This document shows positions 6,601 to 37,900 of a stretch of DNA of 64,000 nucleotides, in pieces. Position 1 is the first letter of the stretch; every line of letters starts with the position of its first letter. A model generated the notes under the pieces. It ran no database searches. It had not been told where the DNA came from and saw only the letters and a list, made by a program, of their open reading frames with translations. The DNA is from Antedon bifida. Lineage: Eukaryota; Echinodermata; Crinoidea; Comatulida; Antedonidae. The stretch lies in the NCBI GenBank assembly GCA_963402885.1, contig OY727102.1, positions 372,001 to 436,000 on the forward strand. The letters are read 5' to 3'. Both the position numbers and the translations under genes were made by a program.

Positions 6601-9465
6601 TACCTTGAATGATTATCGTACATTGAATATGATATAATGTTACTTACTGGCAGGGTTGTTATCAGTACAAGCATTGGTGACAAGCAAAGCTGGTAGACCA
6701 AGGTACCCCAGAGCAATTCCTTTAACTCCCTCAAATAACGTGTAGATTTTATCACCATACTTTAACAATAAAAAAAATATCCATTCATAAACATTCATAA
6801 TATAATACAGGAGTCTAATGTATAGTATGAAAAGTCCTATTAAATAATCACTGAGGCGTGCTATTTCTTATGCTTCAGAGGGTACAGTAAAGTACAGTAC
6901 AAATATTAAATATAAATTATGATATTATAATACATGACAAGTTTCAAGTTTTCTGTTGATTGTAATGCTCAGCACTTAGATACGCCCTGTATTTTTTGCT
7001 ATATAAATTGAACATTATTATTATTTCCATACTGTATGAATCCCAAAGTAGCTGAATGTATTGCCCATGGCAATAAAACTTTGGCTAGCCTGGGTAAAAA
7101 TAATCTTGCTATTGAGCTTGAGATTGGACGGCAAGAATATTAACCACCAAGCTACTATACCACATTGGTTTCAAGGAAGACTTACCCTATAGTAATCACA
7201 AGGAAGACTTACCTTATAGTAATCACCAAATGTTTCATTAGTTTCTGATTGTTTAGCAAAGTTATAAGATCCATATTCTGTAACAAGTTCATCAAAAGTG
7301 TCAATACTGTCCACTGTATCTGGAACTGTGTAATAATTACGATCTTCATCTGAAGAAACAAAACATAATTCAAGTAGTTGAGAATTAAAACAGGAACAAT
7401 GTATATTAAAGCTATAATATGGGCACAGCTCTGGTAGTGGTAGAACAAGAAGATGGATGTCCAGTGTACACATTTGGATTGTGTGCACTTTTCATGCAAA
7501 CTTCCATTATTTCTATCTATCTATCTATCAAAGTTACAAATATGTTCAAATAGTGTACAATATTGTGTGTATTTTGTTGTGATGCTCTTTTTAAAATGTT
7601 GTGATACCAGACAACTAAATAATAAATACTGAGCACTATAATAAATCATTCATTCATTCTTACTGCAGTTAGATTCTACAATAAGAAAAGATAATGCTGT
7701 GCAATATGATTCTGATTTTATTTATTTGTTTTTTACCATATTTTAGATTTGTTTATTATTGTTGTGATTGCGCTTGCCTTGTATACTTTTTAAACGTTTT
7801 TTAAGAAATTGTATTACCACAAATGAATTTGAAATAATACAATTGTATTGTATTGTATGATTCTTACAGTTATCTGTATAAATACAGAATAGGCCGCCAA
7901 CAGTCTCTGTTGTTACTTCGTCATTGTTGATGTTGTAAATTGTTTCTTTTGAGAAACAGACTCTATCTTCATTGCTAAAAATTATAAAGAGAAATTTTAA
8001 AGAATAGTAAGAATGTGAAAAAGATATTATTTGTGAAAAATGTTATATAATTTCATTTGCAGGACTTTTTGAGGGCGCTACTCAAATTACAATACACAAA
8101 ATTAGACACCATTGGGCTGGCTCAAAAGCTCTGGTCAGGCAGATCCATGCTTCACCTTTGACCGCTAAAATAAAATTACTTTTTTGACATCTACTTTTTA
8201 CAGACTAAATCATATTAATACCATATATTAAAAATATTATGTTAGCGCTCCTTCGTTAAAAAAATCCTAGATCCGTCCCTGGGACTGGAAAAGTTTGGTT
8301 TTCAGATTTTTCATTCTCAAAGGGAATCTAAGTGACTGATGGAATTTTATATTTTTAACCATGTTATATAGAATCATGTGAAAATGGTCTTTTACCTTAA
8401 ATCTTGATTGTTACAGAAACTGAAGGTAGAGATATCATCAGCAGAACAATCTGAATCACAACAACAATTCACATCGCAAGCATTGCCAGTCAAATCACAA
8501 GTACATGGCCCAATATCTACAGAATCAAAACAGATATTAAATATATAATGGCCAGTAACAATAAAAATAAAACTATTTTTCATTAATAATATTAAACAAG
8601 AAATATTTCTTACAAAAAACGCTGCTCGACATTTTAAAATTAATCGTTGTTCTTTCTTCAGATATATATTTATGATTAATTATTTGCAAAAATATGGTCA
8701 ATTTTTAACTTTAATGTGCTGTGTGTGTGTGACCTCAACCTGTTGCCATGCAACTGAATACCCTCCAGAGACAACATGACTTCACGGCCGCGTACAAGTG
8801 AGAAAATTCTTCCCAGTCTGTTGATTCGCGTCAACCAATCAAAGGGCGAGAATCTAAAATCGTTCAACCGTGAGCGCTCATAGACTCTCTTTTCACAGAC
8901 ATTTTTTGGGTCCAGCAGCTAGGATCTATAAATTATAGTTGAGTTTACAAAGTCGCAAAACTGTCGGCCTTAGATACTATAACTGCTGCTTGCTTTAGCT
9001 TCTGAATGAGTAGTCCTCATGGGACGTGGCTGGCTAGAGAGCAGCAGCGTGACAGTGAAAATACAAAGATTAAGAATATAATATAACATTGATCATTAGC
9101 CTTATAGGTGCTCAAGGCAATAATAATAGTAATTACTAACCCGTATTTGCTTGTATTGTACTGTATTCTATAGACATTTCTTCAGGCCTAGTAGGTGTTG
9201 TCTGTTGTTGTGGGTCGACGGGCTCCGGGACCGAGGTCGTTTCTCCGCCAGCAGTATCGGTCGTTGGCTCATCGGTGGTTGGCTGGTCACTCGTCATGCT
9301 AGGCTCAACTGTCGTAATATTGGGATTATCGGTACTATTTGTAGTTGAATTCATGTTCTGACTATTTACTAACAAAATAAACGTACATCCTAGGCTTATT
9401 ACCAATAAAAGTAATTCAGGTATGCCTAGGTTTTGCTTCGCCATAGCGACGCACTTTTCCCACAA
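3660..9465 (-). CDS. TCTN: tectonic-family transition-zone glycoprotein
   Basis: Twelve exons on the minus strand join in frame: 9465-9141, 8516-8396, 7974-7868, 7349-7213, 6759-6648, 6551-6433, 6204-5800, 5515-5410, 4978-4861, 4625-4451, 4193-4050, 3896-3660 (2106 nt, 701 aa). It has an N-terminal signal-anchor-like hydrophobic run (LLLLVISLGCTFILLV), a Thr/Ser/Pro-rich linker, the Cys cluster CDLTGNACDVNCCCDSDC (about residues 113-130) and RSGNPGYVIG (about 450-460), both hallmark tectonic motifs, then FGNSDVGIVGDWVPV and a C-terminal hydrophobic tail (about 682-701) suiting a membrane anchor. The length matches tectonic-2 (about 700 aa) better than tectonic-1 or -3, but I cannot assign the paralogue. 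Tectonics act with MKS proteins at the ciliary transition zone. The exon 8/9 joint uses a weak donor (GAGG|GTACCG) chosen because only phase 1 stays open. Confidence 0.88.
4600..4690 (-). repeat. duplicated acceptor/exon 10 start in tectonic gene
   Basis: On the minus strand the exon 10 start, CAG|TGTATCGTTCTCTGATG (exon edge at 4625), has an imperfect copy about 60 bp upstream in the intron, CAG|TGTTATCGTTCTCAGATG, running on into GTCAGTGAGGC against exonic GTCACTGAGGC. The copy has its own AG and about 30 nt of exon-like sequence with an inserted T that shifts the frame. Confidence 0.85.
7173..7226 (-). repeat. 27-bp x2 duplication of tectonic exon 4 donor
   Basis: Two adjacent 27-bp units (7173-7199 and 7200-7226). 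On the minus strand each reads GTGATTACTATA, then AG or GG, then GTAAGTCTTCCTT, so the donor and the last 14 exon bases are copied once into the intron. The genuine exon edge is at 7213; the intronic copy has AGG|GTAAGT. Confidence 0.9.
8220..8285. repeat. fragment of interspersed repeat ending GATCCGTCCCTGG
   Basis: The stretch TTAGCGCTCC followed by AATCCTAGATCCGTCCCTGG in a tectonic intron resembles 62247-62455, where TTAGCGCTCCC precedes AATCCTGGATCCGCCCCTG. Two partial copies of one dispersed repeat; type not identifiable. Confidence 0.4.
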
Positions 9466-9734
9466 AAAAGAAAAATGTTTGTAAACAACCGATAGAGATT
9501 GAATTGAGAGAGGTATATTCAGAACGTCATTCTGACGACTGGAGCATTCTCTACTTCTCTACGGAGCGCCATTTATGCCTTTATTAACTTCAGAAATAGA
9601 AATAGTACTACGGTAAGCGTAAGTAGATCAGCTATCTTCCTATTCTTTATAATAGAAAATAATTAAGGTAATGAATTATTCATGATTTCTGCCAACGTTC
9701 GTCCTGGAAAAAAAAAATACGCCTACGGTAACTG

Positions 9735-10010
9735 GTCCAGTGGATCAAATTTGGCACCGGTGGAGCACAGTGATATAAAATAGAAATAAGTCACTAATTT
9801 AAATATATTTTCGTATGTTAATAACACTGTGCTCAAGTGGACCCAATTTGGCACAAGGAGAGCACAGTGATATAAAATAGAAATAAAATCACTAAAATGT
9901 TATATCTCATTCGTATGTTAATACACTGTGCTCAAGTGGACCCAATTTGGCGCCAGTGGAGCACAGCGATATAACAGAAATAAAGTCACTAAATGTTAAT
10001 ATCTTTTCGT
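9735..10010. repeat. left subterminal array of the 5.8 kb element
   Basis: Three units of roughly 110-125 bp. Each has GTGGACCCAATTTGGC (first copy varied), GGAGCACAGTG, ATATAAAATAGAAATAA, GTCACT and ends ACACTGTGCTCAAGTGG. AGCACAGTG and CACTGTGCT are complements, so each unit is itself bounded by a 9-bp inverted repeat. The same unit lies inverted at the right end. Confidence 0.85.
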
Positions 10011-10313
10011 ATATAACTATTTTTTTTGTAGTTTTTTTTAAGTCGCCTCCATGTATAAACATTTAGCACTACAAACACTACTGATTTCAATATGGTACTA
10101 TATAAAAGAATCATTACAAAATATGATTTATAATTTTTCTTTCGGTAATAAAAAAAAGTGAAATAGATTGAATCATGGTTTTGGTATTTGCCTCTTATAT
10201 ATACAAATATATTTTATAAAAAAATAATATATGACGTATAAATGCATACACATTATGTTGACCATATTCTAGAAAATAATGTAGCGCTTATTAAATAATA
10301 TAAAATTATACTT

Positions 10314-11580: not shown

Positions 11581-11842
11581 GATCAGTTAGCTCAGTCGTC
11601 TGAGCGTCGTGTTAACAACACGTATGTCGTGGGTTCGATTCCCACGCTGGTCGGTGGAATAGAGTTAAAGGCATGCGGCCACTGTGTTTGGGGTTCACAG
11701 ATCATACGTCCCCCTTTCCACCACACATCATGAGGCGACAACATCAATGCATCTGGTGATGTGGTGGGAACGACCCCAAAAGGCTGTGGCAGGGCCTTAG
11801 TGCTGAGGCAGGGAGAGCACATTTACCATCTTTTTTTTTTGG
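11581..11842 (+). mobile_element. tRNA-derived SINE with intact tRNA-Val(AAC)-like head
   Basis: 11583-11654 folds as a complete cloverleaf: acceptor GATCAGT against GCTGGTC (with wobbles), D arm GCTC...GAGC, anticodon arm CGTG-TTAACAA-CACG (anticodon AAC), T arm GTGGG-TTCGATT-CCCAC. It is followed by about 190 bp of unrelated body ending in a T run, with no terminator directly after the tRNA part, so a SINE is more likely than a free tRNA gene. Confidence 0.65.
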
Positions 11843-13905: not shown

Positions 13906-14249
13906 TTTTGATGCTATTATTATTTACATTAGAAGATTTTTAAAATCATGTAAATAAAATATTTTCCGGGCGGAAAGCTAGCAGTTCCCCTCGTTTAGTT
14001 TGCAAAAGTAATCTCGAAAAGAACTCCATGTGGAAAAGAAGCCCACACAAGAGTACTAAAAATGAAGGAGCACATGGGCTTCTTTTCGAGGTTTTATGGC
14101 AGTCTATTTAATGAAATGAATGCCATGCAACTTTGTTTCTGATTTTAAAAAGGTCCACTTCCATTCCATTTACAATCCTCAAAATATCTCTCTTTCAAAA
14201 TAAAAGAAAAACAATATTCATTATTTTCCATTTTAAAAAAAATCCACTT

Positions 14250-14520
14250 GCGCCAAATTGGGTCCACTTCAGCACAGTGTATTAACATACGAAAGGATTG
14301 AAACTTGAGTGACTTTATTTCTATTTTATATCACTGCTCCCCTGGTACCAAATTGTGTCCACTTGAGCACAGTGTTTTATACGAAAAGATATTAAAATTC
14401 AGTGACTTTATTTCTATTTTATATCACTGTGCTCCACTGGGGCCAAATTGGGTCCACTTGAGCACATTGTATTAACATACGAAAAGATATTAAAATTTAG
14501 TGACTTTATTTCTATTTTAT
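14250..14520. repeat. right subterminal array of the 5.8 kb element
   Basis: Inverted copies of the 9735-10010 unit: GCCAAATTGGGTCCACTT, (A)GCACAGTGTATTAACATACG, AAAGATATTAAAA, AGTGACTTTATTTCTATTTT. The last unit is interrupted after position 14520 by a LINE fragment and resumes at about 15106 (ATATACGAAACGATATTAAAA ... TATCACTGTGCT). Confidence 0.8.
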
Positions 14521-15105
14521 TTTTTTATTAAACCTTATTTTGTGAGGGTGACCCTAAACAGCATATGCAGACAGTCAAAAAAATATATGGAAAAAGAAAA
14601 ACGGATAAACTATGTTAAAAAAATATAAAAATATATAATATATATGTACTTAAATACAAAAATATAGCCTACAATACTATTATACAAAACGTTGAGTTTT
14701 TTCTTTTGGGATTAAATATTTTTTTAGAGCAGACTTAAAATTATTTATTGTTACCGCATTTCTTAGTTTGGTGGGTAGCAAATTTAGGTATATTGGTGCT
14801 CTAGAGATGAAGCTGTTCTTAAAAGTTTAAGTTTTAGGGAAAGGGACGACAAATTTCCTCTCACTGACAGGCAGCCCAGTTGTAGATGCATGCTAACCAA
14901 AAAACTACAGCAATAGTCAATGTGTGGGAGGATTATAGTGTTATAGAGGAGTATGGATGTGTGTTTATTAATGAAATGACCGAGCACGCGATAAGATGGA
15001 GATGGACAAGCCCAGTTTGGAACGGAGTTTATTTACATGAAAAGAAAAAGATAAATTTGAATCAATGTGAATGCCAAGATGTTTCTGTTTGCCAGTTTGT
15101 GATAT
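14521..15105 (-). pseudogene. decayed 3' end of a CR1/L2-like LINE reverse transcriptase
   Basis: Read on the minus strand this contains ILLYNTIILPHIDYC (from about 14987 down), the typical end of the reverse-transcriptase thumb in CR1/Jockey-type LINEs, and further on, in another frame, SFISRAPIYLNLLPTKLRNAV and NNFKSALKKYLIPK, the usual last residues before the LINE stop. Frame changes show it is dead. The 3' tail ends GGGTCACCCTCACAAAATAAG. It inserted into the right subterminal array of the 5.8 kb element. Confidence 0.7.
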
Positions 15106-15306
15106 GAGTATATACGAAACGATATTAAAAGTAGTGACTTTTATTTCTATTTTATATCACTGTGCTACCCTGGTGCTAAATTGGGTCCACTTGAGCAGTT
15201 ACCGTAGTACTATTTCTATTATTGAAGTTAATAAAGGCATAAATGGCGCTCCGTAGAGAAGTAGAGAATGCTCCAGTCGTCAGAATGACGCTCTGAATTA
15301 TACCTC

Positions 15307-16690: not shown

Positions 16691-19600
16691 ATGGTGAAAA
16701 CGAGACATAATGAATGTGTTGAAGATGACGAAGGATCGGCCTTTATTAGCTTGAGGAGTTTAAGAGTTAGTAGACGATCAGGATTACAAGGAAATCAGGT
16801 ATTCTTAGTGCAATCTTCCTACCCTATCTGACTGTCTGTGTGTAGGCTCGTCAAAACGGGACAAGGCCTTGCTAAGCCTTTGTCGATTGGTGGAGCTCTC
16901 CATATTTTTGGCCGACCAGCAAGATGGATTCGAGTAGAAATCTTGCTTTACGAAGGCTTGTTGGTAGGCCTAGCCTAACTGGAAACTCTCTGTAGGCCTA
17001 TTTAAGTATGACGTAAATTAGAAAGTATATATATTTAGTTAGGCCTAGCTAGGCTACACTAGGCCTAGGCTAATTAATAAGCAAATAAACTTAAAACTCT
17101 AGGTAGGGCTAGGCCTAGCCTAGGCCCTAGCTAGAGTAGGAAGGAGGCTAGGCCCCTACTAACTAGGCCCTACAGCTAGGCTAGAGTAGAGGCCCTAAAA
17201 ACTAGACTAGCTAAAGATAGTTAGGTCTAGCCTACTCAGCAGGAGAGGTTCTGGGACGTTTACAATATTATTGGGCTCGACTACCTACCTAGTAGGTCCT
17301 AGTAGCTAGCTAGGACCGCCCATCCATGTCGGGATTGGTATTACCAATTAATAACGAACGGTGAGGTTTTATTAAAATTTCCAGTTCTACTGTGTATACT
17401 CATATTTAATGATTTATGAAAAAACAAATACAACAAAATATTATGGCAATAAATTTTATTAAATTATAATTTCTAATGAAGCTTACAAAACATAATTTGT
17501 CTGTAGGATGAAGATGATAGTAGTCCTGAAATTGTTATGTCAGAAAGAAAAAGACGCCGGATTAGCAGAATTGAGAATAATGAAAAACATCAACAAGTAA
17601 ATTGTACACATGCACCGGAAAATAACGAGGAAAACCCACCCACATTGAAGTAAAATATTTTGCTTTGTTCAAGATTTATTTTTATTATTCATTGTAAAAT
17701 GGAAATGAATTAGAGAACAAGTATATGAATATACAGTAATTAATAAAAGGACATTTATACATTTATATTTAAAAATGTTGAAGAAAAATATTTATTTTGA
17801 CATAAACAAAAATTAATTTTTTAGAAAAAGTAAAATAAAAAGACGTGTAAATCGGGATGAAGATAGTGGAGAGAGTATTTACAGCAATCACACGGTAACA
17901 AGAAAAAATTGGCGGTTACAGAGACGGAATCAGGTGAACGGTACGAGTATGAAAGATGAAGAGGTTGAAGATTCGGTGCGAATAAGAAGAAGTGGTCGTA
18001 GCCGTCGTCAAGTCTACAACACAATGAATACTAAACTACTGGGTAAGACAGCTTTGGCTTGGCATCTAATTAAGTTTGTACATAGGGAAAATATATTTTT
18101 TTACATTTTTTGTTGAATATGCCATTTTAATTTCACTTAATAGTTATTAACTTTAACCAAAAAATTGGATTGAAAAAAAAATAATTTACCAGAAAAAATT
18201 ATAATTTAAAGTAAAAATAGTCTAATTGTCAGACAATGGATTTTTGGTTAAAGCTGTTTGTTTGTTTTTTTTTGCCTTTTATCTAAGTGAAACCATCATT
18301 TTGGTTCCATCTTTGTTTCTACTACCAAATGGCCTATTCGAAGTCTGGTTTTATTAATCTTCATTTTTCATGATTTTTGGGGACAATACATCTTTATTAC
18401 GCTTGTGTTCTCTTCATACTAAATCTTATTTTTGTACAGGGGACTTAATGATGAGTGGAGGAATAAACTTAGCAACAGGACCAACAGATGAAGATGAGGA
18501 GGACCAAGAAGATGAAGAAGTGGAGGAAAGAGATGAGGAAGAAGAAGAAGAAGAGGAGGGTGCTAATAACGAAGGAGAGGCTGCAAGTGATGAAGATGGG
18601 GTAAATAGATTTTTAACATTTTTTTTAATTTGACTAATATATATTTGCCAGTCTTTAAGAAGAATTTCTATTATTATTTTATATGATAATGGACAAATAA
18701 AGATTTTCAGTATTCTGTATTCAAATTTATGTCAATGAAATTAAATGAAAACCATTAAATACTTATGGAGTGATTATTTATTGAAGAAGGAAGCATTAGT
18801 ATTAGTGCTGATGTATTCCGTTACCAATACAAGAAGGAAAGCCAGTAGATAATGGCACTACTCATTGGCATGGTACCAGTGATAATAGTACTCTAAGCCA
18901 ATGATACATTAAGAATATTAACAAATTCCTTAAACCATAATTGCATTTTTATAGGGTTTTTTAATTAACGTTTTTAAAAATATATATACATATTTACCTT
19001 TTTGGCAGGTCCATGACAGTCTTTCTTTCTCCATACTTCTCTATTTAATACTTAAATATGTATTTTTTTTTTTTACTTTTACAAAGTATATGATGTTTAT
19101 ATCTATAAAATTAGGAGTTGGAAAGCATGGATATGTACTCTCGTGTGAAACGACGTCACATCTTGGCAAGGAAAAAGCAGGATGCTTTAGAAAAGGGATC
19201 TGGATCGTCAGATGGAAGCTCAGATGATAGTGATGGTAAGCAAGTTGTTTACTGTTTCCCACCCCTGCCCAAATATGGTCAACACTATGTTTGTCCTCTC
19301 CATCAATGACTTTTTTTAAAATGATAGATGAATAAAAAAAAAAAAAATTTATGAATGAATATTAAATATTTTAAAAGTATATTTATACATTCAACATTGT
19401 GAATTTAAATTTTAAATATTTAAAGATTCTTCAGATGATAGCTCAGATGAGGAGGAGGAAGAAGAAGAGGTGCGCCCTCAACAATCAAATTACAGTCTAC
19501 GAACAAAAAGATCAGTCACGAAGCGGTTTGAAGTTCCAATAGAAGCCCACAAAAAGAGGAACAAAAGGTCGTCACTATTTGATGGTGGCGCATGTTCCCC

Positions 19601-22600
19601 TTTTAGAAGTTACCGCCGACGCAAGCCAGGACCATCTACACCAGTCAGGAGCCCTGTTAAGAGGTAAGGTTTCGACGTCTCCACTTTATTTTTAAAGATT
19701 ATCAATGAAAATTGTTATTATGGCTTTTACAGACGCATAGTAGTGACAGTGAAGACAATTACAGAGCTTTGTTTGAGACAAAGACATTTTTAAATCAACC
19801 AAACACAATTATGAAACAAACAAGATGTATATGATGTCTCAAACTCATTCTTTCCCATTAATCCAGCTCTCAATCTCAAATTGCTTCAAGAAGAATGAAA
19901 TTTGATGGAGAGAGTAAATCTTTACAATTTTTAGAGCATAACTGTTTATGTGATTGTTTTTTCAGAATGAGGCGACGTCATGCCACTCACAATCGTTCTT
20001 CCACAAGTTCTGACTCGTCTGATGATGAACGCAGATTTGAACGGAGGAAAAAGAAAAGCATGGCAAAGGCTAGAATGAGGTGACATTTTTAACAATTATT
20101 TATAGCTGTTTTAATATCCCTATAGTGAAAATCCCATATGGTTCATTTTGAGAATGTTTAGAATAAATTGTTGTCATTTTTTTTTGGTTGTTATAATCAT
20201 TAATTAATAACACATATATGCTACTGCATTCCATATCTATAGTATTATACTAAATGAGTCAATTTTTTTTTTATTATTAAACTTTGTTTAATGAGGGTGA
20301 CTCATAAGAGAAATTTGTAATACCGATGCCTTCACTATTCATACCTGTACAGTATATTATAAATATTTTTGTGTAATTTGTTTTATAAGTATTTTAAATA
20401 TGTTATATATGGTCTTTTTATATTTATATTCTTGCCAAGGAAGACAATTTTCATAATGTAATTTTATTTATTTTATGATGAATAAAATTTTATCTATCTA
20501 TCTATAACAGCTGAGGCTGACATGCATGAGGCCCTCAACACTTAATAGGAACGATACAAACACAAAAAACGGATGACAAAAATGGAAAAAAACAGACCAA
20601 TATATACATATATTACATATGCTCTACCTTGGTATTGAGCACTCTATCTATACATATATTACATATGCTCTACCTTGGTATTGAGCACTCTATCCTAACG
20701 GTCTGTTAATTTCAACCTGAATATATTACATATATATGTAATTTGTAAATATATAGAATTAAAAATAGGAATATAGTTTAAGAAAGGGAGAATCATGTGT
20801 TTTTTTTAGTTTCACAAATATTTTACTTAATGACTGGTTTTCATTTCAGATGCCTCCCAATGAATCTGGCACCTGATGACCTCACAGGTGTAATGAAAGA
20901 TCGTCAGAAGATAGGTAGTAGTTTGGCAGACATCGATCCTATGACTATTGATTCATCGGTAATATTATTCATTTTCTTAATACTGTCGACTCTCAAAACC
21001 AGAAACTCTCTCAAAAGCAGAAACTGTCTCAAAACCAGACATGTCTTGTTGCCAAAAGGTCTTAAATTCTTGTTACCATTCAAAAAGAAACCCAAATTAG
21101 ACCAGTCCAAGAGTGTCCGGCATTGAGAGAGTTGACTGTTGTCTCTAGGACTAGTTTATATTGAATCAATGTTTTACTTTTACAGTTCAAAACAAGTCTT
21201 TTTCCTTTCATATTATTTCATGTTTTTTTTTATTAGGTTACATTTGAAAATGTTGGTGGCCTTGGTAAACATGTTCAAGCACTTAAAGAAATGGTGGTGT
21301 TTCCTTTACTATACCCAGAGGTGTTTGAACGTTTTAAGATCACCCCACCCAGGGGAGTACTCTTCCATGGCCCCCCAGGTACAGGCAAAACCTTAGTTGC
21401 AAGAGCCTTAGCAAATGAATGCCGGCATGGGGATAAGCATGTATCTTTCTTTATGAGGAAAGGAGCTGATTGCCTCAGCAAGTGGGTTGGAGAATCAGAG
21501 AGACAATTGAGACTCCTCTTTGACCAGGTTAGTTATTTCATGTTTCTATGCATTTAATACAACAAGTATGAAAGTGATCAAATGTATAACCAGTATATAT
21601 TTAGTAATGAAAGACTGAAAGATGTGGAAAAGAAAATAAATAAAGTTTGATAGAATGACAGTACTGTATGCCTTAATATGTAATTTGTCAAGTGATTATG
21701 ATGTTGGATGAAAGGAATAAATGATTAAAAAAGACTGAAATAATATTTAGTGTGAATTCTATCATCTTTTAGGCCTGCACGATGCATCCTGCAATAATAT
21801 TTAGTGTGAATTCTATCATCTTTTAGGCCTACACGATGCATCCTGCAATAATATTTAGTGTGAATTCTATCACTACATCTTTTAGGCCTACACGATGCAT
21901 CCTGCAATAATATTTAGTGTGAATTCTATCACTACATCTTTTAGGCCTACACGATGCATCCTGCAATAATATTTAGTGTGAATTCTATCACTACATCTTT
22001 TAGGCCTACACGATGCATCCTGCAATAATATTTAGTGTGAATTCTATCACTACATCTTTTAGGCCTACACGATGCATCCTGCAATAATATTTAGTGTGAA
22101 TTCTATCACTACATCTTTTAGGCCTACACGATGCATCCTGCAATAATATTAGTGTGAATTCTATCATCTTTTAGGCCTGCACGATGCGTCCTGCAATAAT
22201 ATTTAGTGTGAATTCTATCATCTTTTAGGCCTACACGATGCATCCTGCAATAATATTTAGTGTGAATTCTATCACTACATCTTTTAGGCCTACACGATGC
22301 ATCCTGCAATAATATTAGTGTGAATTCTATCATCTTTTAGGCCTGCACGATGCGTCCTGCAATAATATTTAGTGTGAATTCTATCATCTTTTAGGCCTAC
22401 ACGATGCATCCTGCAATAATATTTAGTGTGAATTCTATCACTACATCTTTTAGGCCTACACGATGCATCCTGCAATAATATTTAGTGTGAATTCTATCAC
22501 TACATCTTTTAGGCCTACACGATGCATCCTGCAATAATATTAGTGTGAATTCTATCATCTTTTAGGCCTGCACGATGCGTCCTGCAATAATATTTAGTGT

Positions 22601-25600
22601 GAATTCTATCATCTTTTAGGCCTACACGATGCATCCTGCAATAATATTTAGTGTGAATTCTATCACTACATCTTTTAGGCCTACACGATGCATCCTGCAA
22701 TAATATTAGTGTGAATTCTATCATCTTTTAGGCCTGCACGATGCGTCCTGCAATAATATTTAGTGTGAATTCTATCATCTTTTAGGCCTGCACGATGCAT
22801 CCTGCAATAATATTTAGTGTGAATTCTATCATCTTTTAGGCCTACACGATGCATCCTGCAATAATATTTAGTGTGAATTCTATCACTACATCTTTTAGGC
22901 CTACACGATGCATCCTGCAATAATATTTAGTGTGAATTCTATCACTACATCTTTTAGGCCTACACGATGCATCCTGCAATAATATTTAGTGTGAATTCTA
23001 TCACTACATCTTTTAGGCCTACACGATGCATCCTGCAATAATATTTAGTGTGAATTCTATCACTACATCTTTTAGGCCTACACGATGCATCCTGCAATAA
23101 TATTTAGTGTGAATTCTATCACTACATCTTTTAGGCCTACACGATGCATCCTGCAATAATATTAGTGTGAATTCTATCATCTTTTAGGCCTGCACGATGC
23201 GTCCTGCAATAATATTTAGTGTGAATTCTATCATCTTTTAGGCCTACACGATGCATCCTGCAATAATATTTAGTGTGAATTCTATCACTACATCTTTTAG
23301 GCCTACACGATGCATCCTGCAATAATATTAGTGTGAATTCTATCATCTTTTAGGCCTGCACGATGCGTCCTGCAATAATATTTAGTGTGAATTCTATCAT
23401 CTTTTAGGCCTACACGATGCATCCTGCAATAATATTTAGTGTGAATTCTATCACTACATCTTTTAGGCCTACACGATGCATCCTGCAATAATATTTAGTG
23501 TGAATTCTATCACTACATCTTTTAGGCCTACACGATGCATCCTGCAATAATATTAGTGTGAATTCTATCATCTTTTAGGCCTGCACGATGCGTCCTGCAA
23601 TAATATTTAGTGTGAATTCTATCATCTTTTAGGCCTACACGATGCGTCCTGCAATAATATTCTTTGATGAGATTGATGGCTTAGCTCCTGTACGTTCCAG
23701 TAGACAGGACCAAATTCACAGCTCCATTGTGTCAACATTGCTAGCATTAATGGATGGGCTTGATAGCCGGGGAGAGATTGTCGTGATAGGCGCCACCAAT
23801 CGGATTGATTCTATTGATCCTGCATTGAGAAGACCAGGACGTTTTGACAGAGAGTTTCTGTTTCCGCTTCCTTCAAAAGAGGTAACAACATAAATAAATA
23901 AAACTAGACATGAAACTCGTCACTTTGACGAGTTAGTTATCCGCACCACGACAAACGCCACGTGCACGTCATACGTTGGAATATTGCACACAGATAAAGA
24001 TTATGGCATTATGACAAGAACTGAAGAATATGACATGCTGTTAGTGCTGAATTTTGTGTCATATAGTATATACATGCAAACAGTATAAGCTGTATACATA
24101 TTACATACAGTGTAGAATAGGTGAAATTACGGGACCCGCCATTTATTCCAATTTTTAACATGGCGACGGTATCAAAATGAAACACTTAGATAGCAATTTC
24201 AGAAGGAAATTATCTCAGGAACAACATATTAACGTGTAGAAGAAATTTGAATACGTAAAATATAGATGCGCACCCTTTTAAATGTGATGAACTATTACGC
24301 AAAATATGAAAATACGACTTTTTTTATTCAACTGGCCATATGATGACATCACAACATCCGATTGGCAAAATGTTTACATGAATTCGTATCTACAATCCAA
24401 TAGCTTCCAGAAAACGTTTTAATCGTGATTATCACATTTTATTCTTACGAGCTATTACAGATTAAAATTTACTGTAAAGATGAAATTAATGACCCACGTA
24501 ATTAAAATTTTTAGGCATGATGACGTCATAAAAATTAAAATATTTTTATCTCATGCTAAAGAAAGTTGATTGACCTACACAATATATAAATGTAGGAGAA
24601 AAAGGAATACAGATAAGCGCGATGCGCTCCATTGAATGTGATGAGCAATAACGAAAGAGACAAAAATCCTATATTTTACATTCGTGTGGCCATACGATGA
24701 CGTCACAATGTTTTTTTAGCCTTATTGATGCATGATCCGATATCTACAACTCATCAACTTCTAGATTTTGTAATAAAAATAAACGGTTAACGGTTTACTT
24801 TAGAAACTATGACTGTTTAAAAAAAGACATAATTTTGACGATTTTTTAAGCTTTTTCATAAAAAACGCGCACGAATTGTCTAATTCAACGTGTTCGTATG
24901 GCGTTATTTAAACTGGAAAAGGTCTAAATTGTTTTCAAAATCACTGGGAAAGGCTTGAAAAATATAATTCAAGAGAAAAAAATATGTTTTTAACGCTACG
25001 TGCGCACCGCGCGCATAAAAAATTGCGCGCCCGTGGGAATTTTTGACATGCTCAAAATGACAAGAAACGCGTAAAAAGTTGATTAGAAATTAATTTTGCG
25101 CATTTTGAAATTTTAAATGCGCGTGCGCGCGTAACTTCTTGTCAAACATGCCATTTTTAATCCGTAGAAAGTTTGCCCCTGATATGACTTAAATTTTGTC
25201 AAAGTGTCAATACTAAATGACTTTTGGTTTTTAATCTATGATCAATCATTGAAATTCATAAAATTGCGCATAAGTCACGTTGCGCAACTATGACGTCATT
25301 CAAAAATAGGAGGTGCACAACTTCACGTAAATGCCCATATGTTGTCAAAGTTATGAAATGTTATGTTTACACATTTTAGAGGAACACGAATCACAAAAAG
25401 GAAGGAAGGAAAGAAGAATAATACAGAAAAAAAATATTGATCTCATACAATTACAAGGAGTTATCCGCTTGGTATACCAAGCGGATAACTAATAAAGTAA
25501 AATCATAGCATCCAACAAATTTTAAACTAGTTAGTCCTATTTATAAAATAGAAACGATAATATACATTTTGTTATTTTTTTAAAAATCTTTCACAGGCTC

Positions 25601-28600
25601 GCAGTCAAATCCTATCAATTCATACCAAAGAATGGAATCCCAAATTATCTGAAAGGTTTATCAACGAGGTTGCGGAAAAATCTGTTGGTGAGTTGTTGTT
25701 GATAAACGTTGTCGACAATCATTTGTTCATAATTCTGTTTACATTTTTTAATTTAATATGCTAATGTATTTAAAATAATAATGATAATGTATTTAATATG
25801 TTAATGTATTTAAAATAATAATGATAATGTATTTAATATGTTGTTGTACTTAATATGTTAATGAATTATTGCAGGTTATTGTGGTGCCGATGTGAAGGCA
25901 TTATGTACAGAAGCAGCATTACAAGCACTAAGACGTCAGTATCCACAAATCTATGCATCCAAAGAAAAACTACAACTAGACCTCAGCCAAATACAGATCA
26001 CAGCTAGAGATTTCCACCATGCTATGCAAATCATTGTACCAGCTTCACAGAGGGCGGTCAGTTCTCCCGGTAGAGGTTTATCGGTTGTTGTAAGGCCGCT
26101 GCTAGAATGTAGTTTGCAACAACTTGTAGACCTTACACGTAAGGTTTTCCCACAGTCATGGAAAAAAAGATCTGGTCTTGATATGAAGGGTAAATACTGT
26201 GTCTCCTTTTTATTTTGGTATACAAAATGCATGACATTGGTAATAATAATATAATAATTTTCATACCAGATTTAGTATTTTTATATGGATTATTTTTTAT
26301 ACCAATAATAATGAATGAAGTAAAAAAATTATAAAACAAATTTTTTTGTTAATATAAATAATTATTTTGTAATACATTTTAGAAGAGAAAGTATAAATAA
26401 TCTTGTTAAAATACAAAATTGTTTTATTTTTATTTCAATATATACAGGTTCTTCAGATGCATCAAGCGTTGCCATGGCGTTATTGAATGATGATGAATAC
26501 AGTGATGATGATGCTCCTAGTATATATGACAACAATAAAGGTCGTAGGTCAACAACTGAACTCAATGGACCAATTAACCCGTTTCTTAACTTTGCCTTGT
26601 AAGTCAGTGTTTGGAAGATTTTAAAATGCAGTGATGTAGAGATTTTTACAGGCATAAAAAAATCAGGTTTCACATTTACTTACTGTGTGTAAGAAATTGG
26701 TATTGTATTAGAAACAGTTGTATTTGAAATATTAGGGTTTTTTTTCTTACAGATCAGCCTATAACACACCATCAACATATCAACCTCGAATCCTGATAAC
26801 AGGAGCACGTCACTTGGGTCAAAGTTCACATTTAGCGCCAGCGTTGCTACATAATATGGAGCATTTACCAGTGCACTGTCTAGATCTCCCAGCCCTCTAT
26901 GCTGTCACTGCCAAGTCCCCAGAAGAATCATGTGCTCAGGTGATATAATATAATTTTTTTTTTTTCATCTATAACAACTTTAAAAAGATTTTTTAATCCA
27001 CTAAAAGTTCTCAAAGAACTAGTCACAGAATTGGTAGTTTTAGTTTCTACTTTATACTTCATTAATATATGCCTCGGCAAAAAGGTATGATTTTAATGAA
27101 TTTTTAAAATAATTAATTGTATGGCGATATGTAGAATGTTAATTGGACTGTGTCTTGTACTGCACAATGATTACACATGTACAATTAACCTTAAAATAAT
27201 AAAAAACTAAAAATGAATGATATATATATATAAATATGAATGGTTATCTTCTGTAGGTGTTTCGTGAAGCGCGACGTACTTGCCCAAGTGTAATCTACTT
27301 GCCCCACGTTGTTCAATGGTGGTCAGCTTGTACAGAAACCATGAAAGCCACATTCCTGACCTTGCTAGAAGATCTACCATCAACCACACCCATCTTGTTA
27401 CTTGCTACGTCCGAATCAAGTGATGAAAACATCCCAGAAGAGGTAAGGCTCTGTCTACACTATCAAACTAGTTAAGTGTGATGTGCCTAAATATGTTAGT
27501 GATATGACATCATTATGTCCATATATGGGCACATCTCATTTCATATGTTTAGCAATGTTAACTGGCTTTAGAAACAGAGCACTGCACTGCAGCTTATTGA
27601 CTTGTTGAATTTTAGACAAGTTAAGCAACTTACAATTGTGAACAAGTTAAGCAACTTACAAATGTAAACAAGTTAAGCAACTTATAAATGACAAGTTAAG
27701 CAACTTACAAATGTAAATTTGGATGCATTGGTTATGATTACGATTATACCTTGCAACCTGGACAGTGATATCAATATTATGACCAATTCACTTCAAAATA
27801 CATTTATTTCTCAAAATAAAACGGAAATCTTCTTCTATAGCAATAACAGCAACTTAGCAAAGATGTAATAAGTGTTTAGTAATATTTATCGGGTCTTTTT
27901 CAGATTGATGAATTATTTAGCACCAAATTCCGAGTAAAATATCCAACTGAAGCGGAAAGGAGAGAGTTCCTGAAGGAGTTGATAATCCAGCAGGCATCCA
28001 GAGCACCTCCAAGAAAGAAGAAAGCAGCAACAAGGGCTTTGATAGAACTGCCTGTAGCCCCAGCGCCTGAACCAAAGCGTATGAACCAAACTGAACTAGA
28101 CAGACTTGAGAAGTTTGAGGAGAGTCAGCTTAGAGAATTACGATTGTTCCTGCGTGATGTGGTGTCTAGACTTGCCAAAGAAAAGAAATTTAGGGTATTT
28201 GCTCACCCTGTAGATCCAGAAGAGGTAATACTTTATTCTTAACTTGAAACATTACTTTCTAGTTTGGAAACATCAATCAAAATATATGAATGTAGCCACC
28301 ATGATGTAAAAATGAAAAATATTATTCATGATGTTCAAAACTAACATGAAAAATGTAATTTTAAATGTTTCTATTTCTAGGTTCCTGACTATGAAGAAGT
28401 GGTAAAGACGCCGATGGATCTAGCTACCATGATGTCAAAGATTAACATGAAGAAGTACACATGTGCAAAACAGTTCTTAGAGGACATTGACCTTATCTGT
28501 AGCAACGCACTGGAGTATAATCCAGACAGAAATCCTGCAGGTTGGTACAGCAGCGTCTTTCAATAACATTTATTGCAAATAACTTGTATCCAAAGATGTA

Positions 28601-31600
28601 CTAGGTTCTTTAAACTACACATGAGCTAGATGCTCTGGACCTACGGTTTATTGTTCCTTATCCACCAGAACCTTTGCCCCTTGATTGAACCTAATTGAAT
28701 TGATAAGACCGATTATTTTTATAAAATGATTTACACTTTCTGAACATGTACACATTTGTTATTTCAGATAGGATTATAAGATTCAGAGCATGTGAGTTGA
28801 AAGACACAGCTTATACAATAATAGACGTAGAGATGAACTCAGAATTTGAAAAGTCATGTGTTGACATCATGCATTCCAGAAAAAACAGAGGTAACATTTG
28901 AATCTTGAAAATAAACTTGCGCCTGATTTGTCATTTGACATGTCAAACCTTTGAGCACTCGAAGTAAGAAACAATGTTGCCTGCTTTCTGCCTGAAACAG
29001 TATAGGCCTATTTAACAATACTGACAAATATAAAATAAACAGGAATCTGCTTTGACATATTGTCCCCCGGAAAAATATAAAAAAATATTTCAATAACTTT
29101 ATTAAAACTGTAAAATTGCCTATTTAAAGCCTGATTTTATTAATCTTCATTTTTCATGTTTTTTGGAGACAATACAACTTTAAGAAGTAGAATTGATTTG
29201 AGGGTATTTAGTTATCTTTTCACTTTGTCTACATAACAAGTATAGTTAACAGAGGTGTAGAGTAAAAGCAAAAGTTGCACATAGGATGCTTAACCAACAT
29301 TCCTATATCGACACACTACCTTCCTTTCTATGAACTTATTGCAATTATATTGAATGTGTTAAATAACTTAACTTTTCTTAAAATTTCACATTATAGGTGA
29401 TAGTCCCACCAAGCATATACCAGATTTTTTCAGAGTGTCGCCTAAAAAAAAGACATCCGTAAACCGATTAATGAATCGTGCACATACGCATTCGCCAGCT
29501 TCCCAAGACACGCCCACTATGTCAGATGTGTTGACAGACGAATATGAATTGAGAAGCAGCGGTATGCGCCGAAAAAGGCGACGGCGTTCTGCATGGGCAC
29601 GTGGATTTATACCATCAAACAGAAAAAGAAAATTAACGGAAACTTTTGAAGAAAAAGATACCGAAGAAAAAGAGGAGGATGAAAAGGAAGAGGAAGATAC
29701 AGATAATGAACGCCCTCACAGGACGCGGTTTAGAAATCTACGTAGACCCTCTGCCGTGAGTCCTGTAAAGGCTCTCAGGGATAATAAACCAGAAAGTGCA
29801 AATGCTATTGAACCACATACTGTGTGTGAGAATGAATCACATACTGTGTGTGAGGATGAACCACATACTGTGTGTGAGGATGAACCACATACTGTGTGTG
29901 AGAATGGAACAGTTGAACCTAATGAGGCTGAGATGTCATCACACTCTAGTGGTGCTGATCCACCAATATTACACCCTATTCAGGATGTTGATACAGCAAT
30001 TGTAACAAATGGACCTGAAGTATTACAACAACCTAATGAGGAATGTGATAAAGAATCAAAGAAGGAAGAACATTCTACGGAATGTAATGAAGAAGAAGAA
30101 GTAGAATTGGAAGACAGTGAGCGTGGTCAGTAATTGTCTTTATTATTTGAATTTCATTTATGATTATTAGATTTGATAGTTATTACACTTTTGTTAAAGA
30201 TGTGTCCCCTGAAAAAATATTTTTTTTGTTGAATATGCCATTTTAATGTCACATAATAATTATCCATTTTCACAAAAAATTGGATCAAAAAAAAAATTAT
30301 TTATCTGAAGAAACTGTAGTTTAAGGCAAAAATAGTCAAATTGGCAGCTGTCAGCCAATGTGTTTTGGTTGAATTTAACCATTAATTTGTCATTTTATAA
30401 GTGAAAATATTTTTTTTCTACAGAAGTGATTCACTTTATTAAACTACAAAATAACCTATTCAAAGTATTATTTAATTAATCTTCATTTTTCATGTTTTTG
30501 GGGGACAATACATCTTCTGTATGTTCTTCCTCAATAAGGTCCATAACGGCATATCACATTTATTGTTATTATTTTCAGTGACTCCAATAACTGTACGTAT
30601 GACTAGGTCACGTGGGGCTAGTAAAACAGCCCAGAGGGCGCTGCAGATTTTAGAAGAACCTTTACCAGAATTGGTTGTTGATGTTGTCAAATTACAGGTA
30701 TATAGATTGCATTTGGACATTTACTTGGCAATAAACAATTTTGCAATGGAACATGCCACATGGAAGAAGGAACAAAAACAGTTTCCTATAAGGGTCCTGC
30801 AAATACAATTAATTGAACAATTACACAAACCAATGTAACATCATCATCAGTTAGGTTGTCATCTTGCGAAATGCTTTACTTTGACGCTTTTCACACATTT
30901 TTACCATTTTCCTCCATCACAGGCAGGGTTGCAGTTACATATTTTTGTTAAAGCCTATATAAGGAAGTTACACATTTTAAAAAATGTCTTAAAAATTAAT
31001 AATTACAGAAATTGTTAGAATTAGCTGTCAGTTTGACTGTCAACTATACAGTAAGCAGACTTGAAAGGTTACACAGCGCCCTCAGTCAGTGTATCTACCT
31101 CCATCGTAGGGATTACGATAAAACAAACTTAACCCAGGTAAGTTCATTTCTAATATTCTACGTGGTGTCTCTCTTTCATTGAGCCTGTGCGTTAAAGATA
31201 TAGATGAATTTCCAAAACAATGTTTTTAATGTGATTGGTTCTACTTCTTGCGATAACCACCACACTCTCTTTGTATGATAACCACCACGTCACTCTCTTT
31301 GCATGATAACCACCACACTCTCTTTGTATGATAACCACCCCACTCTCTTTGTATGATAACCACCACACTCTCTTTGTATGATAACCACCACACTCTCTTT
31401 GTATGATAACCACCACACTCTCTTTGTATGATAACCACCACACTCTCTTTGTATGATAACCACCCCACTCTCTTTGTATGATAACCACCACGTCACTCTC
31501 TTTGTATGATAACCACCACACTCTCTTTGTATGATACCCACCACACTCTCTTTGTATGATAACCACCACATTCTCTTTGTATGATAACCACCACACTCTC

Positions 31601-32059
31601 TTTGTATGATAACCACCACACTCTCTTTGTATGATAACCACCACACTCTCTTTGTATGATAACCACCACACTCTCTTTGTATGATAACCACCACACTCTC
31701 TTTGTATGATAACCACCACACTCTCTTTGTATTATAACCACCACACTCTCTTTGTATGATAACCACCACACTCTCTTTGTATGATAACCACCACACTCTC
31801 TTTGTATGATAACCACCACACTCTCTTTGTATGATAACCACCACACTCTCTTTGTATGATAACCACCATGTCACTCTCTTTATATGATTATATGTCCACC
31901 TACTCATTATTTTTTTATAATGTATGTAACTATATATTGCTGAATAAATGTGAAAAATGTGAATTGAAATGATATGTTATGCTATATTTTTCAAAGCTTC
32001 TAAGCTAACTCATTTTCTTTTAGGATATGGAGAATGAGATCTTAAAACTAGCCAGATGA
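16691..32059 (+). CDS. ATAD2: ATAD2/ATAD2B-like AAA ATPase with bromodomain
   Basis: Twenty-two exons join in frame: 16691-16798, 17507-17649, 17825-18042, 18440-18600, 19115-19235, 19426-19663, 19966-20079, 20850-20958, 21237-21527, 23633-23881, 25597-25687, 25875-26189, 26448-26598, 26753-26939, 27257-27442, 27904-28224, 28381-28540, 28768-28890, 29397-30125, 30579-30697, 31009-31137, 32024-32059 (4299 nt, 1432 aa, like human ATAD2/ATAD2B). An acidic/basic N-terminal region precedes AAA1 with Walker A GPPGTGKT (449-456), Walker B IIFFDE (509-514) and RRPGR (567-571). A second, degenerate AAA domain lacks a clear Walker A. The bromodomain covers about 965-1075, with the acetyl-lysine-binding Asn at about 1043 (CSNALEYNP). 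The family binds acetylated histones and helps chromatin turnover. Exon 19 codes four in-frame copies of an 8-residue unit (HTVCEDEP). Intron 9 holds a remarkable array. Confidence 0.95.
17035..17335. repeat. TAGGCCTA-rich block in ATAD2 intron 1
   Basis: Dense overlapping words such as TTAGGCCTAGC, CTAGGCCTAGGC and AGCTAGGCT over about 300 bp, mostly self-complementary. Looks like simple-sequence expansion; no ORF. Confidence 0.7.
18085..18395. mobile_element. MITE family B, ATAD2 intron 3
   Basis: Contains TTTGTTGAATATGCCATTTT, AAAAAATTGGAT, GTCTAATTG and ends TTCATTTTTCATGATTTTTG then GGGACAATACATCTTT, the inverted form of the AAAGATGTATTGTCCCC terminus. Left terminus is eroded. Confidence 0.7.
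20262..20515 (-). mobile_element. LINE 3'-tail fragment in ATAD2 intron 7
   Basis: The plus-strand TTATTAAACTTTGTTTAATGAGGGTGACTC matches in pattern the tail of the LINE at 14521 (TTTATTAAACC...GAGGGTGACC). Downstream is AT-rich sequence ending in (CTAT)n. Non-coding. Confidence 0.45.
20583..20702 (+). repeat. about 55-bp x2 intronic tandem repeat
   Basis: ATACATATATTACATATGCT followed by CTACCTTGGTATTGAGCACT and CTATC occurs twice in succession. Fully intronic; no splice junction involved. Confidence 0.85.
21738..23660 (+). repeat. 34-fold array of ATAD2 exon 10 acceptor and exon start
   Basis: Units of 59 bp (and 53-58 bp variants lacking ACTAC or one T) run from about 21738 to the true exon 10. 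Each unit carries ATCTTTTAG|GCCTACACGATG, C(A/G)TCCTGCAATAATATT and then TAGTGTGAATTCTATC. The part after the AG is the start of exon 10, coding [11 protein letters not shown] count 33 intronic AG|GCC copies (first at 21772|21773) and the genuine acceptor at 23632|23633. A higher-order pattern of three to four unit types recurs (GCCTGC...CGT, GCCTAC...CAT long, GCCTAC...CAT with one T fewer). Most intronic copies read CAT where the exon reads CGT. Confidence 0.97.
23914..25496. mobile_element. 1.57-kb non-coding element with terminal palindrome in ATAD2 intron 10
   Basis: TTAGTTATCCGC at 23931 recurs inverted at the other end (GCGGATAACTAA, ending about 25492). The right end is a perfect 32-bp palindrome whose half is AGTTATCCGCTTGGTA; the left end is preceded by a hairpin CTCGTCA-CTT-TGACGAG. 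The interior is AT-rich with several GCGCGC patches and no ORF. Short inverted ends plus a 3' hairpin would suit a non-autonomous Helentron-like element, but the class is a guess. Confidence 0.6.
25758..25862 (+). repeat. intronic tandem repeat in ATAD2 intron 11
   Basis: About 40-bp units with TTAATGTATTTAAAATAATA and ATGATAATGTATTTAATATG occur twice with a degenerate third piece. It stops about 10 bp before the exon 12 acceptor and does not copy it. Confidence 0.8.
27446..27545. mobile_element. MITE family A, copy abutting ATAD2 exon 15 donor
   Basis: The donor reads GAG|GTAAG and is followed at once by GCTCTGTCTACACTATCAAA, the family A terminus. The TAA of the donor sits where other copies have their TWA flank. 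The right half is missing beyond GGGCACATCTCATTT. Confidence 0.85.
27605..27722 (+). repeat. about 27-bp x4 intronic repeat
   Basis: Unit ACAAGTTAAGCAACTTACAA with ATGTAA or similar spacer, four copies with small differences, inside ATAD2 intron 15. No junction involved. Confidence 0.8.
29120..29185. mobile_element. MITE family B end fragment
   Basis: CTTCATTTTTCATGTTTTTT then GGAGACAATACAACTTTAAG matches one terminus of family B. Only the end is present. Confidence 0.6.
30197..30517. mobile_element. MITE family B, ATAD2 intron 19
   Basis: Opens TAAAGATGTGTCCCCTGAAA and closes GTTTTTGGGGGACAATACAT CTT, inverted termini. Internal TTGAATATGCCATTTTAATG and GCAGCTGTCAGCCAATG match the 49.99 and 52.84 kb copies. 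Non-coding. Confidence 0.8.
31248..31885 (+). repeat. 25-bp minisatellite, about 25 copies, ATAD2 intron 21
   Basis: Unit CTCTCTTTGTATGATAACCA followed by CCACA, highly uniform, with a few 28-bp variants (CCACGT insertion) and CCCC variants. Because 25 is not a multiple of three and no unit has a stop on the minus strand, long spurious ORFs appear there. Not coding; no splice junction involved. Confidence 0.95.
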
Positions 32060-34950: not shown

Positions 34951-37900
34951 GAATCTCAGCTCGTGCTACTTCAGTAAATGTTTTAGCGTTGAGTATTAAT
35001 AGGAAGGGTGGTTGTTCGCCTTTAAGGTGAATCACGGATGATAGGATAACTCCTATAAATAGAACAGAGTAATCATTTACAAACTAGTAGTCACGTGGTT
35101 CAAAACATAAAGCTCTGTCTACACTATCAAACTAGTCCGACAAAAAAAAGTGTAATGTGCCCAAATATGGTAGTATTATGCTTATATATGGTAGTGATAT
35201 GACATCATTATGTCTATATATGGGCACATCACATTTTGTTGTCACATAAAGTTTGATAGTGTAGACAGAGCTTAAGATAGGAAAGGAAGTGGTGATTTAC
35301 ACTTACCCTCGTCTTCTTGCTGAGCGTTGGGTGATTCAACGAATATCGGCTCAGACGGAAACCAGTCAACCTCTCTCCATGATGTACTGGTCTTGGTCGA
35401 GATGTCCACTTTTAACAACTACATAAAAACAAGTACAATCATATCGGAGACTAGGGGATCGATAGTAGTCATTGGTGTATGGTAGTGAGCAGTGGGAGTA
35501 AAAGAGGCATATCGGAGACTAGGAAATAGCGCCGATATCATGGGTGGTTTAGTCAGTAGCGGAGATAAGAGAGGGGTGAACGGATTTGACAGTTGCGGTA
35601 TTCATGGTTAGGTGATGTTACTGTATTTGTAGCCGTCTTCTTCTGAAAACATATGACTCGAGATCTACATTTACACCATGCTATACCTTTTATATTAGTT
35701 ACTGATTAGTGAGTTTAGTTGGTAGAGAAAAGTAAGAAAGTGTTCTTACGGTTTGTAGTCCGTATCCAAGTCCGTAGAAGTAACGGTATGGTTTACCGTT
35801 ATAAGATGCGTAGTTTATCTGTGGAACTTCCACAGCTGTAAAAAAAATGTTTAGATATCAATTTCATAATTGTATTTTTATAAACTTACAGAACCTCACA
35901 GTGGTATGAGATAAATTAAACAACTCCGATGGAGATTATGAAATCTTCTTTCATGGTTTGGTTCAAATTCATTTCTATACCTACTAGATTACAGCTTGAG
36001 CGAGGGTACAGTAAAACCTATAGATGTGTCATATTTGTTTTTAAAAGATAGACTTAGAAGAGATTCCTAAATATCAATATTATAGTGCGTTATTATTATT
36101 TTTAACAACCAACAGCAGTGTACTCACAAACGTCCGAAATCATTTCTGGCTCTACGTACACATGGTCAATTGATGTTAAATAGGCCCTTGCGTCACTTCC
36201 TGCCAACGTGACCAGTTGCTCTTTTGAAGTTCCAATATTCTAATTGAGATTATTAAAAAAAACATACAAACTGTTACAGCACTCGCATATTCCTTAATTG
36301 AATATGACATTCAGCAGAAGGGCTCAGAATCATCCATGCATTCTGTCCTCAGACAATACGGATGCTCCCTATATTATCAATTTGTACTTTATAGTACATA
36401 GTTTCTAGTTGTAAAACATAAAGCTCTATCTACATTATCAAACTTTATGTGTCAAAAACATGTCTATATATGGACATGATGATGTCATATCACTATCAGA
36501 TTTGGGCACATCACACTTTTTTGTCAAACTAGTTTGGTAGTAGTATTTTTCCGAGGACTAATAAGTTATAGTTACGGTATCCTATGTGTTAACATCCTCC
36601 TAAATACTCTAAATGATAACATTCTCAGCTAGCTTTTCTTTCTATACCTGTTTGTAATCTATATTTACCTCAGCTTCTATAATGGGAAGTACAAATCTCA
36701 TTGGTTTATTATCAGTTTCTGGAATAAACCCTGTTTTCATATTTTTAATCTTGAAAAAGTTCAAAACATCTACATTTTCATAGCAACACATATCGACAAC
36801 AACATGGCCATCTTGTTCAAACGCGTTGACATGATGCAAAGTGAAAAACGCTTTGGCTGAGTAACGCGTTTTTACATGCTCCCCTGTGTCCCTACGAATC
36901 AGGTGAAAATACGTTCTTTTCGCAGGATTCCAATCCAAGCACGAGTCCATTGGGTTACCAAGCAACCTAAACGTTAACGCTCTAAACGCGTTTATTGTTA
37001 ACGGTTGTTCAACAAACACTACAAAGTTTGACGTTATACCGAAGCTATGGAAATATGAAGGATGGATTCCTGGACACGTGATTCTAGACAGCACAGAAGC
37101 ACGATTCAAGTCACCGCCGCCGGATCCTATGGAAATAAACAGACATTCATTTAAAACAATATTGTATTATTTTTTAAAAACACATCATAAATTCTTTGTT
37201 ATCTCTATTTTTCAGTGAACGAGAAAGGAATGTAATTCTCTATTTTGAGAAGTCTCGTATTGTAAGATTTCCATTAAATAATATATCTATTGTAATGCAA
37301 ATCATTTATACACATCGAAGAATATATCTTTGTATAATATGGAGAAAGTAACATTCGTCGTGGAATTTTGGTATTTCGAAAGCCATGGCTATTATGCTTG
37401 GTTTTCACAAGAACGAAACACAATTATACGTAAGTGCAAGCAAATTGACCAATGACAAGCTACAGTTGAATAATCCATTCGTGATTGGTCAAATTACTTG
37501 CGTTGTCTGGCGTTGTTGCGCGCGTCGTCCAGTGTGAACCAATCATAATCCTGGATGATACCATGGATGTGGTAGGGAGAGAAATAATAGCAAAGTAATA
37601 TTCATTCGTCACAAAACAGTTTTGACCAACACCAATTAAGTAAGACCTATACGTCACGAATGTTAATCGTTGGAATGAACATATCACCATGACAACCTCA
37701 CATCTATAAGCAATTAGGCCTTGTACAATTTATGTTTTAAAATTCTAATCATTAATAGTAAGTGGGCTAGTATAACTCTAATTCAAATTCTAATCATTAA
37801 TAGTAAGTGGGCTAGTATAGCTCTAATTAATGGTAATCATCATAACATTAGTTGGTTTCTTTTGTCATTTTTATCTACGAAATTATCATCATGTTCATAT

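Follow-up and report, generated by a model that had tools for sequence, protein, structure and literature searches.

A stretch of 64,000 nucleotides from the genome of the crinoid Antedon bifida (assembly GCA_963402885.1, contig OY727102.1, positions 372,001 to 436,000 of the forward strand), in the following called the window, contains a gene for ATAD2 in which the end of one intron and the start of the next exon occur in a long tandem array. Positions given here are those of the window. The gene lies on the plus strand and was modelled with 21 phase-consistent exons from 16691 to 31137 by exon modelling, alignment with a protein of Anneissia and Pfam searches; a 3' terminal exon beyond 31137 was left out of the model. 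The deduced protein is 74% identical over its full length (1083 of 1473 aligned columns) to the ATAD2-like protein of Anneissia japonica, a comatulid crinoid, with 92% identity in residues 400–800 of the model, and Pfam places an AAA domain, an AAA lid and a bromodomain in its first 1096 residues. Exon 9 (21237–21527) ends with ...LRLLFDQ at the phase 0 donor CAG/gttagt (the slash marks the junction), and exon 10 (23633–23881) encodes the Walker B stretch, which aligns with the solved ATAD2 chain 8h3h. The intron 9 between them measures 2105 bp, about 1.9 kb of which is made up by the array. The reading frame of the gene is intact, and the junction FDQ/AYTMRP is collinear with the Anneissia protein without any insertion. 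A preliminary description made from the letters of the sequence had named the gene as ATAD2-like, numbered the exon as 10 and placed the array just 5' of the Walker B strand; exon model, Anneissia alignment and 8h3h bear out all three assignments.

Structure of the array

The array extends from 21735 to 23661 on the plus strand, was detected with Tandem Repeats Finder (TRF) with periods of 59, 54 and 53 bp, and runs from the end of intron 9 into exon 10. When the plus strand of the whole window was searched for the motif TTTTAG/GCCT, 34 exact copies were found, located at 21773 to 23633. Thirty-three of these are intronic, the number already counted in the preliminary description, and the 34th, at 23633, is the real start of exon 10. 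The acceptor string TTTTAGGCCT behaves in the same way, all of its 34 matches on this strand falling inside the array. Each unit consists of 24–30 bp of the intron end followed by the first 29 bp of exon 10.

Only four distinct sequences occur among the 33 units between the acceptors: type A with 59 bp (17 copies), type B with 53 bp (seven), type C with 54 bp (seven), and type D, likewise with 54 bp (two). They differ by a 5-bp insertion CTACA, by one T, by TAC or TGC, and by CAT or CGT. Their order reads DAAAAABCABCAABCABC-DAAAAABCABCAABC-exon. The CpG-type difference between CAT and CGT noted earlier is indeed present: 26 of the 33 intronic copies have CAT instead of CGT, and the remaining seven, all of type C, keep CGT but carry TGC for TAC. 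The exon copy, which combines TAC with CGT, is unique. The two codon variants occur in each of their four possible pairings, which requires either exchange among units or recurrent mutation. The arginine encoded by the CGT of the exon is kept in all five ATAD2 proteins inspected (Anneissia, Strongylocentrotus, Asterias, Branchiostoma, and macaque).

When the array is compared with itself, an exact match appears that is 894 bp long and offset by 1013 bp. The first copy occupies 21739–22632 and the second 22752–23645, both on the plus strand; the second continues into exon 10, where the match stops at the difference between CAT and CGT. A block of 1013 bp thus occurs nearly twice, which is why the unit type of the left edge is present twice. 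Exact identity over 894 bp is the mark of either a very recent duplication or an error of the assembly. The array might therefore be real and its length inflated, one 1013-bp period being false and the true count amounting to some 16–17 acceptors. The identical unit order in both halves adds to the exact match in favour of this explanation, and one of the lancelet "mirages", repeats of a similar kind that are taken up below, is reported to be apparently misassembled in the draft genome (PMC3087553). A recent unequal exchange, however, predicts the identical picture. We rate an inflated length as rather unlikely; it would be compatible with the reading favoured below.

The left edge of the array (21735–21747, plus strand) reads CTGAAATAATATT and matches CTGCAATAATATT of the exon in 12 of 13 bases. 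Its part AATAATATT (21739–21747) is repeated in exon 10 at 23653–23661, and may have acted as a microhomology.

Two further repeats belong to the same gene region. Exon 19 contains an in-frame 24-bp tandem repeat of about four copies (29809–29906) where Anneissia has a single HNVCENG, and a 25-bp minisatellite of 25 copies lies 3' of exon 21 (31252–31888). Three minus-strand frames stay open across the latter, for which a unit without stops is probably the sole reason.

Strength and frame of the acceptors

For a comparison of splice signals, 136 junctions of six genes (69 acceptors and 67 donors) were hand-picked from reading frames across the gene regions of the window, and a weight matrix was built from the 68 acceptors other than that of exon 10. 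With this matrix 17 acceptors of the array, including the real site, score 6.16 bits and the other 17 score 6.48 bits, which agrees with the previous view that they are nearly equal. The median of the 68 other acceptors is 8.37 bits, and 6.16 bits corresponds to their 26th percentile. Of the 81 AG sites between 21601 and 23700, 35 score at or above the 5th percentile of real acceptors: the 34 sites of the array and one at 21604. A candidate branch point, TGTGAAT, can be seen by eye in each unit, with its A about 18 nt 5' of the exon, or about 23 nt in the 59-bp units.

With an intronic acceptor in use, exon 10 would measure 303 to 2109 nt in place of its 249 nt. Read-through from each of the 33 meets a stop, after 11 codons in seven cases and after 17 codons in nine cases, both within the first unit, and in the remaining 17 within the second unit, after 27 codons; the premature stops within one or two units that had been expected are therefore found without exception. 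Only acceptor 34 is open across the modelled exons. The GT sites within the units are weak. The best of them, AGT/GTGAAT, scores 2.45 bits as compared to a median of 7.38 bits and a minimum of 2.34 bits for the 67 donors of the window, and pseudo-exons of 33–34 nt, one per unit, ending at this site are unlikely with a donor score so near to the weakest real one.

Two general rules bear on the choice among such acceptors. Exon definition favours short exons, scanning from the branch point favours the first AG. As they predict opposite choices here, RNA data would be telling.

Duplicated junctions elsewhere in the window

Including that of ATAD2, eight of the 136 modelled junctions are duplicated, four donors and four acceptors in four genes, and the extra copies always lie on the intron side. 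An FSAF1-like gene (FSAF1 is also called C1orf131) carries a donor-side array at junction 1509 (1479–1658, plus strand; TRF, Pfam), with four copies of 44 bp across CACAG/GTATGA that are identical around the junction. A tectonic-like gene on the minus strand has two cases: two diverged copies of an acceptor at junction 4625 (4597–4700; gapped scan), and a donor-side duplication of 2 x 27 bp at TATAAG/GTAAGT, junction 7212 (7172–7226; TRF). The other four cases are on the plus strand. Two are donor-side repeats of a CACNA2D-like gene, the protein of which is 92% identical to that of Anneissia over 1150 residues: 5.5 copies of 42 bp at FNP/GTAAGT, junction 54223, with AT for GT in one copy (54189–54431; TRF), and 2 x 124 bp at PLLR/GTCAAT, junction 54814 (54730–54977; TRF). 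Two are acceptor-side arrays: four copies of 32 bp with TTGTTGTAG/AC, sharing at most five exon bases, at junction 59067 (58949–59072; TRF), and a degenerate array of about six copies of ~40-bp units 5' of AGCGGATG at junction 60497 (60265–60520; TRF and gapped scan). A 44-bp duplication with TTTCCATAG in an intron of the CACNA2D-like gene (55908–56001) has no exon attached and may be what is left of a duplicated acceptor.

The gene models underlying these counts were checked against Anneissia proteins for ATAD2 and the CACNA2D-like gene, by frames and Pfam for the tectonic-like and RPE65-like genes, and by Pfam for the FSAF1-like gene. The sixth gene is presumably KHDRBS-like, and its tested exon matched no Pfam family. 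The list omits several uncertain sites: in the FSAF1-like gene the first acceptor (1201/1202), in the tectonic-like gene the exon 8 donor and the exon that follows, in the RPE65-like and the KHDRBS-like gene the 5' exons, and in ATAD2 the last exon.

Eight of 136 junctions being affected raises the question whether tandem duplication favours junctions here, through some link with transcription or splicing. To examine this, 50 TRF rows were combined manually into 34 arrays, which cover 6017 of the 64,000 bp; for the unit-length null a single period was assigned to each array, likewise by hand. Random placement of the 34 arrays at full length gave no excess at junctions, with six spanning arrays observed and 7.6 expected (P 0.83), or five and 7.0 with margins of 8 bp (P 0.88), and circular shifts as well as placement within genes are in accord with this. 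Placement by unit length was used as well because it suits an array that began as a single short duplication, and in this test six of the 22 in-gene arrays span a junction as compared to 2.3 expected (P 0.022), or five as compared to 1.5 with 8-bp margins (P 0.009). Counted per position the preference is again not seen. A gapped scan found a near copy at six of 136 junctions versus 84 of the 800 control positions (of these 84, 14 lay outside TRF arrays), and an ungapped scan, requiring 28–30 matches of 40 and covering the 127 junctions that passed a complexity filter, found one at seven of these 127 versus 10–11% of gene positions. The rule of the gapped scan demands more shared sequence than the duplications at 7212 and 59067 offer, and these two were recognised from TRF overlap and reading. 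All these junction counts are biased upwards, because the ATAD2 array was the starting point of the analysis. The tests thus disagree; a preference for splice sites is possible, and as an explanation of the arrays we regard it as unlikely.

Other repeats were noted in the window. The sequence AGTTTGATAGTGTAGACAGAGC has 11 matches with up to three mismatches (mean of 100 shuffles 0.00), among them those at 2109–2234, 35112–35271, and 41873–41972; it forms three facing pairs 56–116 bp apart and lies in introns wherever gene models exist. Judged from their sequence, these pairs would represent a palindromic element resembling a miniature inverted-repeat transposable element. The tectonic-like gene has at its 5' end a large interrupted inverted repeat (9517–10019 and 14243–15298) that contains ~95-bp tandem units in both arms, with one 100-bp pair of arms 97% complementary, and encloses a match to the tRNA family at 11581–11653 (50.4 bits).

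Relation to known repeats, origin and use

Tandem repeats across exon-intron boundaries have been described in lancelets as mirages. According to two reports they occur on both sides of exons and leave regular splicing undisturbed (PMC3087553, PMC3902484); the mirages of Adh and troponin C are stated to produce no aberrant mRNAs, and imperfect repeats are described in PGBD5 (PMC3902484). It was considered that mirage copies might serve as cryptic sites, and an intron gain by tandem duplication was proposed (PMC3087553). The ATAD2 array and the mirages are alike in boundary-spanning tandem units on the acceptor or donor side, splice signals in the copies, and possibly concerted evolution. Mirages have inner units that are homogenised, with the edge of the cluster exempt; in the ATAD2 array the small number of unit sequences and the unique exon copy would suit this pattern, the twofold presence of the left-edge type would not. 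Every ATAD2 unit joins the intron end to the first 29 exon bases, and all 33 intronic copies score 6.16 or 6.48 bits as compared to 6.16 for the real site. In the window as a whole both 5' and 3' exon boundaries are duplicated, with four donor and four acceptor cases. The differences concern size and host: haplotypes of BflGb6 have six and three units, whereas 34 acceptors and a nearly doubled block are present here, the lancelet units range from 10–72 bp (Adh3) to 150–160 bp, and the host gene is that of a lancelet there and an echinoderm ATAD2 here. RNA behaviour and length variation, a trait of mirages between haplotypes or cells, were reported for the lancelet repeats, while the ATAD2 array is known from one sequence.

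In the human IFI6 (6-16) gene several splice donor sites are provided by a minisatellite (Turri 1995, as cited in PMC4526556). This minisatellite resembles the ATAD2 array in multiplying a splice site, and differs in that it lies on the donor side, its repeat units serving as donors of mRNAs, while the ATAD2 array lies on the acceptor side. Multiplication of a 5' splice site of this type was not found in the ATAD2 array, whose GT sites score 2.45 bits at best; of the repeats in the window, the donor-side arrays of junctions 1509 and 54223 come closer to IFI6. No crinoid or echinoderm mirage was found in the literature searched, which left most subscription papers outside. In its structure the ATAD2 array agrees with a mirage, and it would be a large and tidy member of a rarely described type of repeat.

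We consider it likely that the array is a passenger minisatellite, produced by local tandem duplication and unequal exchange as a general by-product of a minisatellite-rich genome, with the last acceptor mainly used. It would have started with a short local duplication linking the first 29 bases of exon 10, which end with AATAATATT, to an intronic AATAATATT. These nine intronic bases would have stood 25 bases before the intron end, the unit spanning from just past the intronic to the exonic copy. A nine-base microhomology at both ends of the first duplication is possible as the simplest account. Unequal exchange would then have enlarged and homogenised the array, followed late, as the exact identity over 894 bp suggests, by the in-register near-doubling with the period of 1013 bp, and selection would have preserved only the exon-proximal copy as coding sequence. 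The transcript would thus offer 34 acceptors that are about equally strong by score. With the real donor 249 nt downstream, exon definition would make the last one most likely the main one, and earlier ones may be used to some extent, giving stop-containing RNAs. The array is probably mostly harmless. Seven other junctions in the window are duplicated in a similar way, which points to a general by-product and not to a device of ATAD2.

Several points weigh against this reading. Use of the last acceptor is an inference from exon definition. The exon formed from the next upstream acceptor has merely 303 nt, so that considerable leakage is possible. The microhomology could instead be the worn edge of the first repeat, and the unit-length placement hints that junctions are favoured.

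Leakage of this kind might also be put to use, as the preliminary description suggested, if upstream acceptors were used often and the array length set the share of stop-containing RNA and hence the ATAD2 level. The near-equal scores and the stop after each intronic acceptor would suit such a regulation; the lancelet repeats, reported to be without disturbance of splicing (PMC3087553, PMC3902484), and the similar duplications at seven junctions of three other genes argue against it, and it appears very unlikely. Still harder to believe is its extension to a heritable, fast-changing rheostat, in which spliceosomes would sample the 34 near-identical acceptors, copy number would set the share of the last one, the rest would be destroyed as stop-containing RNA, and unequal exchange would tune ATAD2 output between individuals, with such arrays at many crinoid genes. 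A mobile element or introner bearing an acceptor and inserted repeatedly, as repetitive intron sequence with splice signals might suggest, is scarcely credible and was set aside, the unit containing coding bases of ATAD2 and the acceptor string being confined to the array on the plus strand of the window.

Read as a passenger minisatellite of the mirage type, the ATAD2 array and the other duplicated junctions, eight within 64 kb in all, would add echinoderms to the lancelets as carriers of mirages. In the array one donor faces 34 near-identical acceptors that differ mainly in position and exon context, a natural experiment on whether the spliceosome takes the first or the last of several near-equal acceptors or picks among them at random. 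The finding also bears on intron gain by tandem duplication, and arrays of this kind would hamper gene annotation and short-read assembly.

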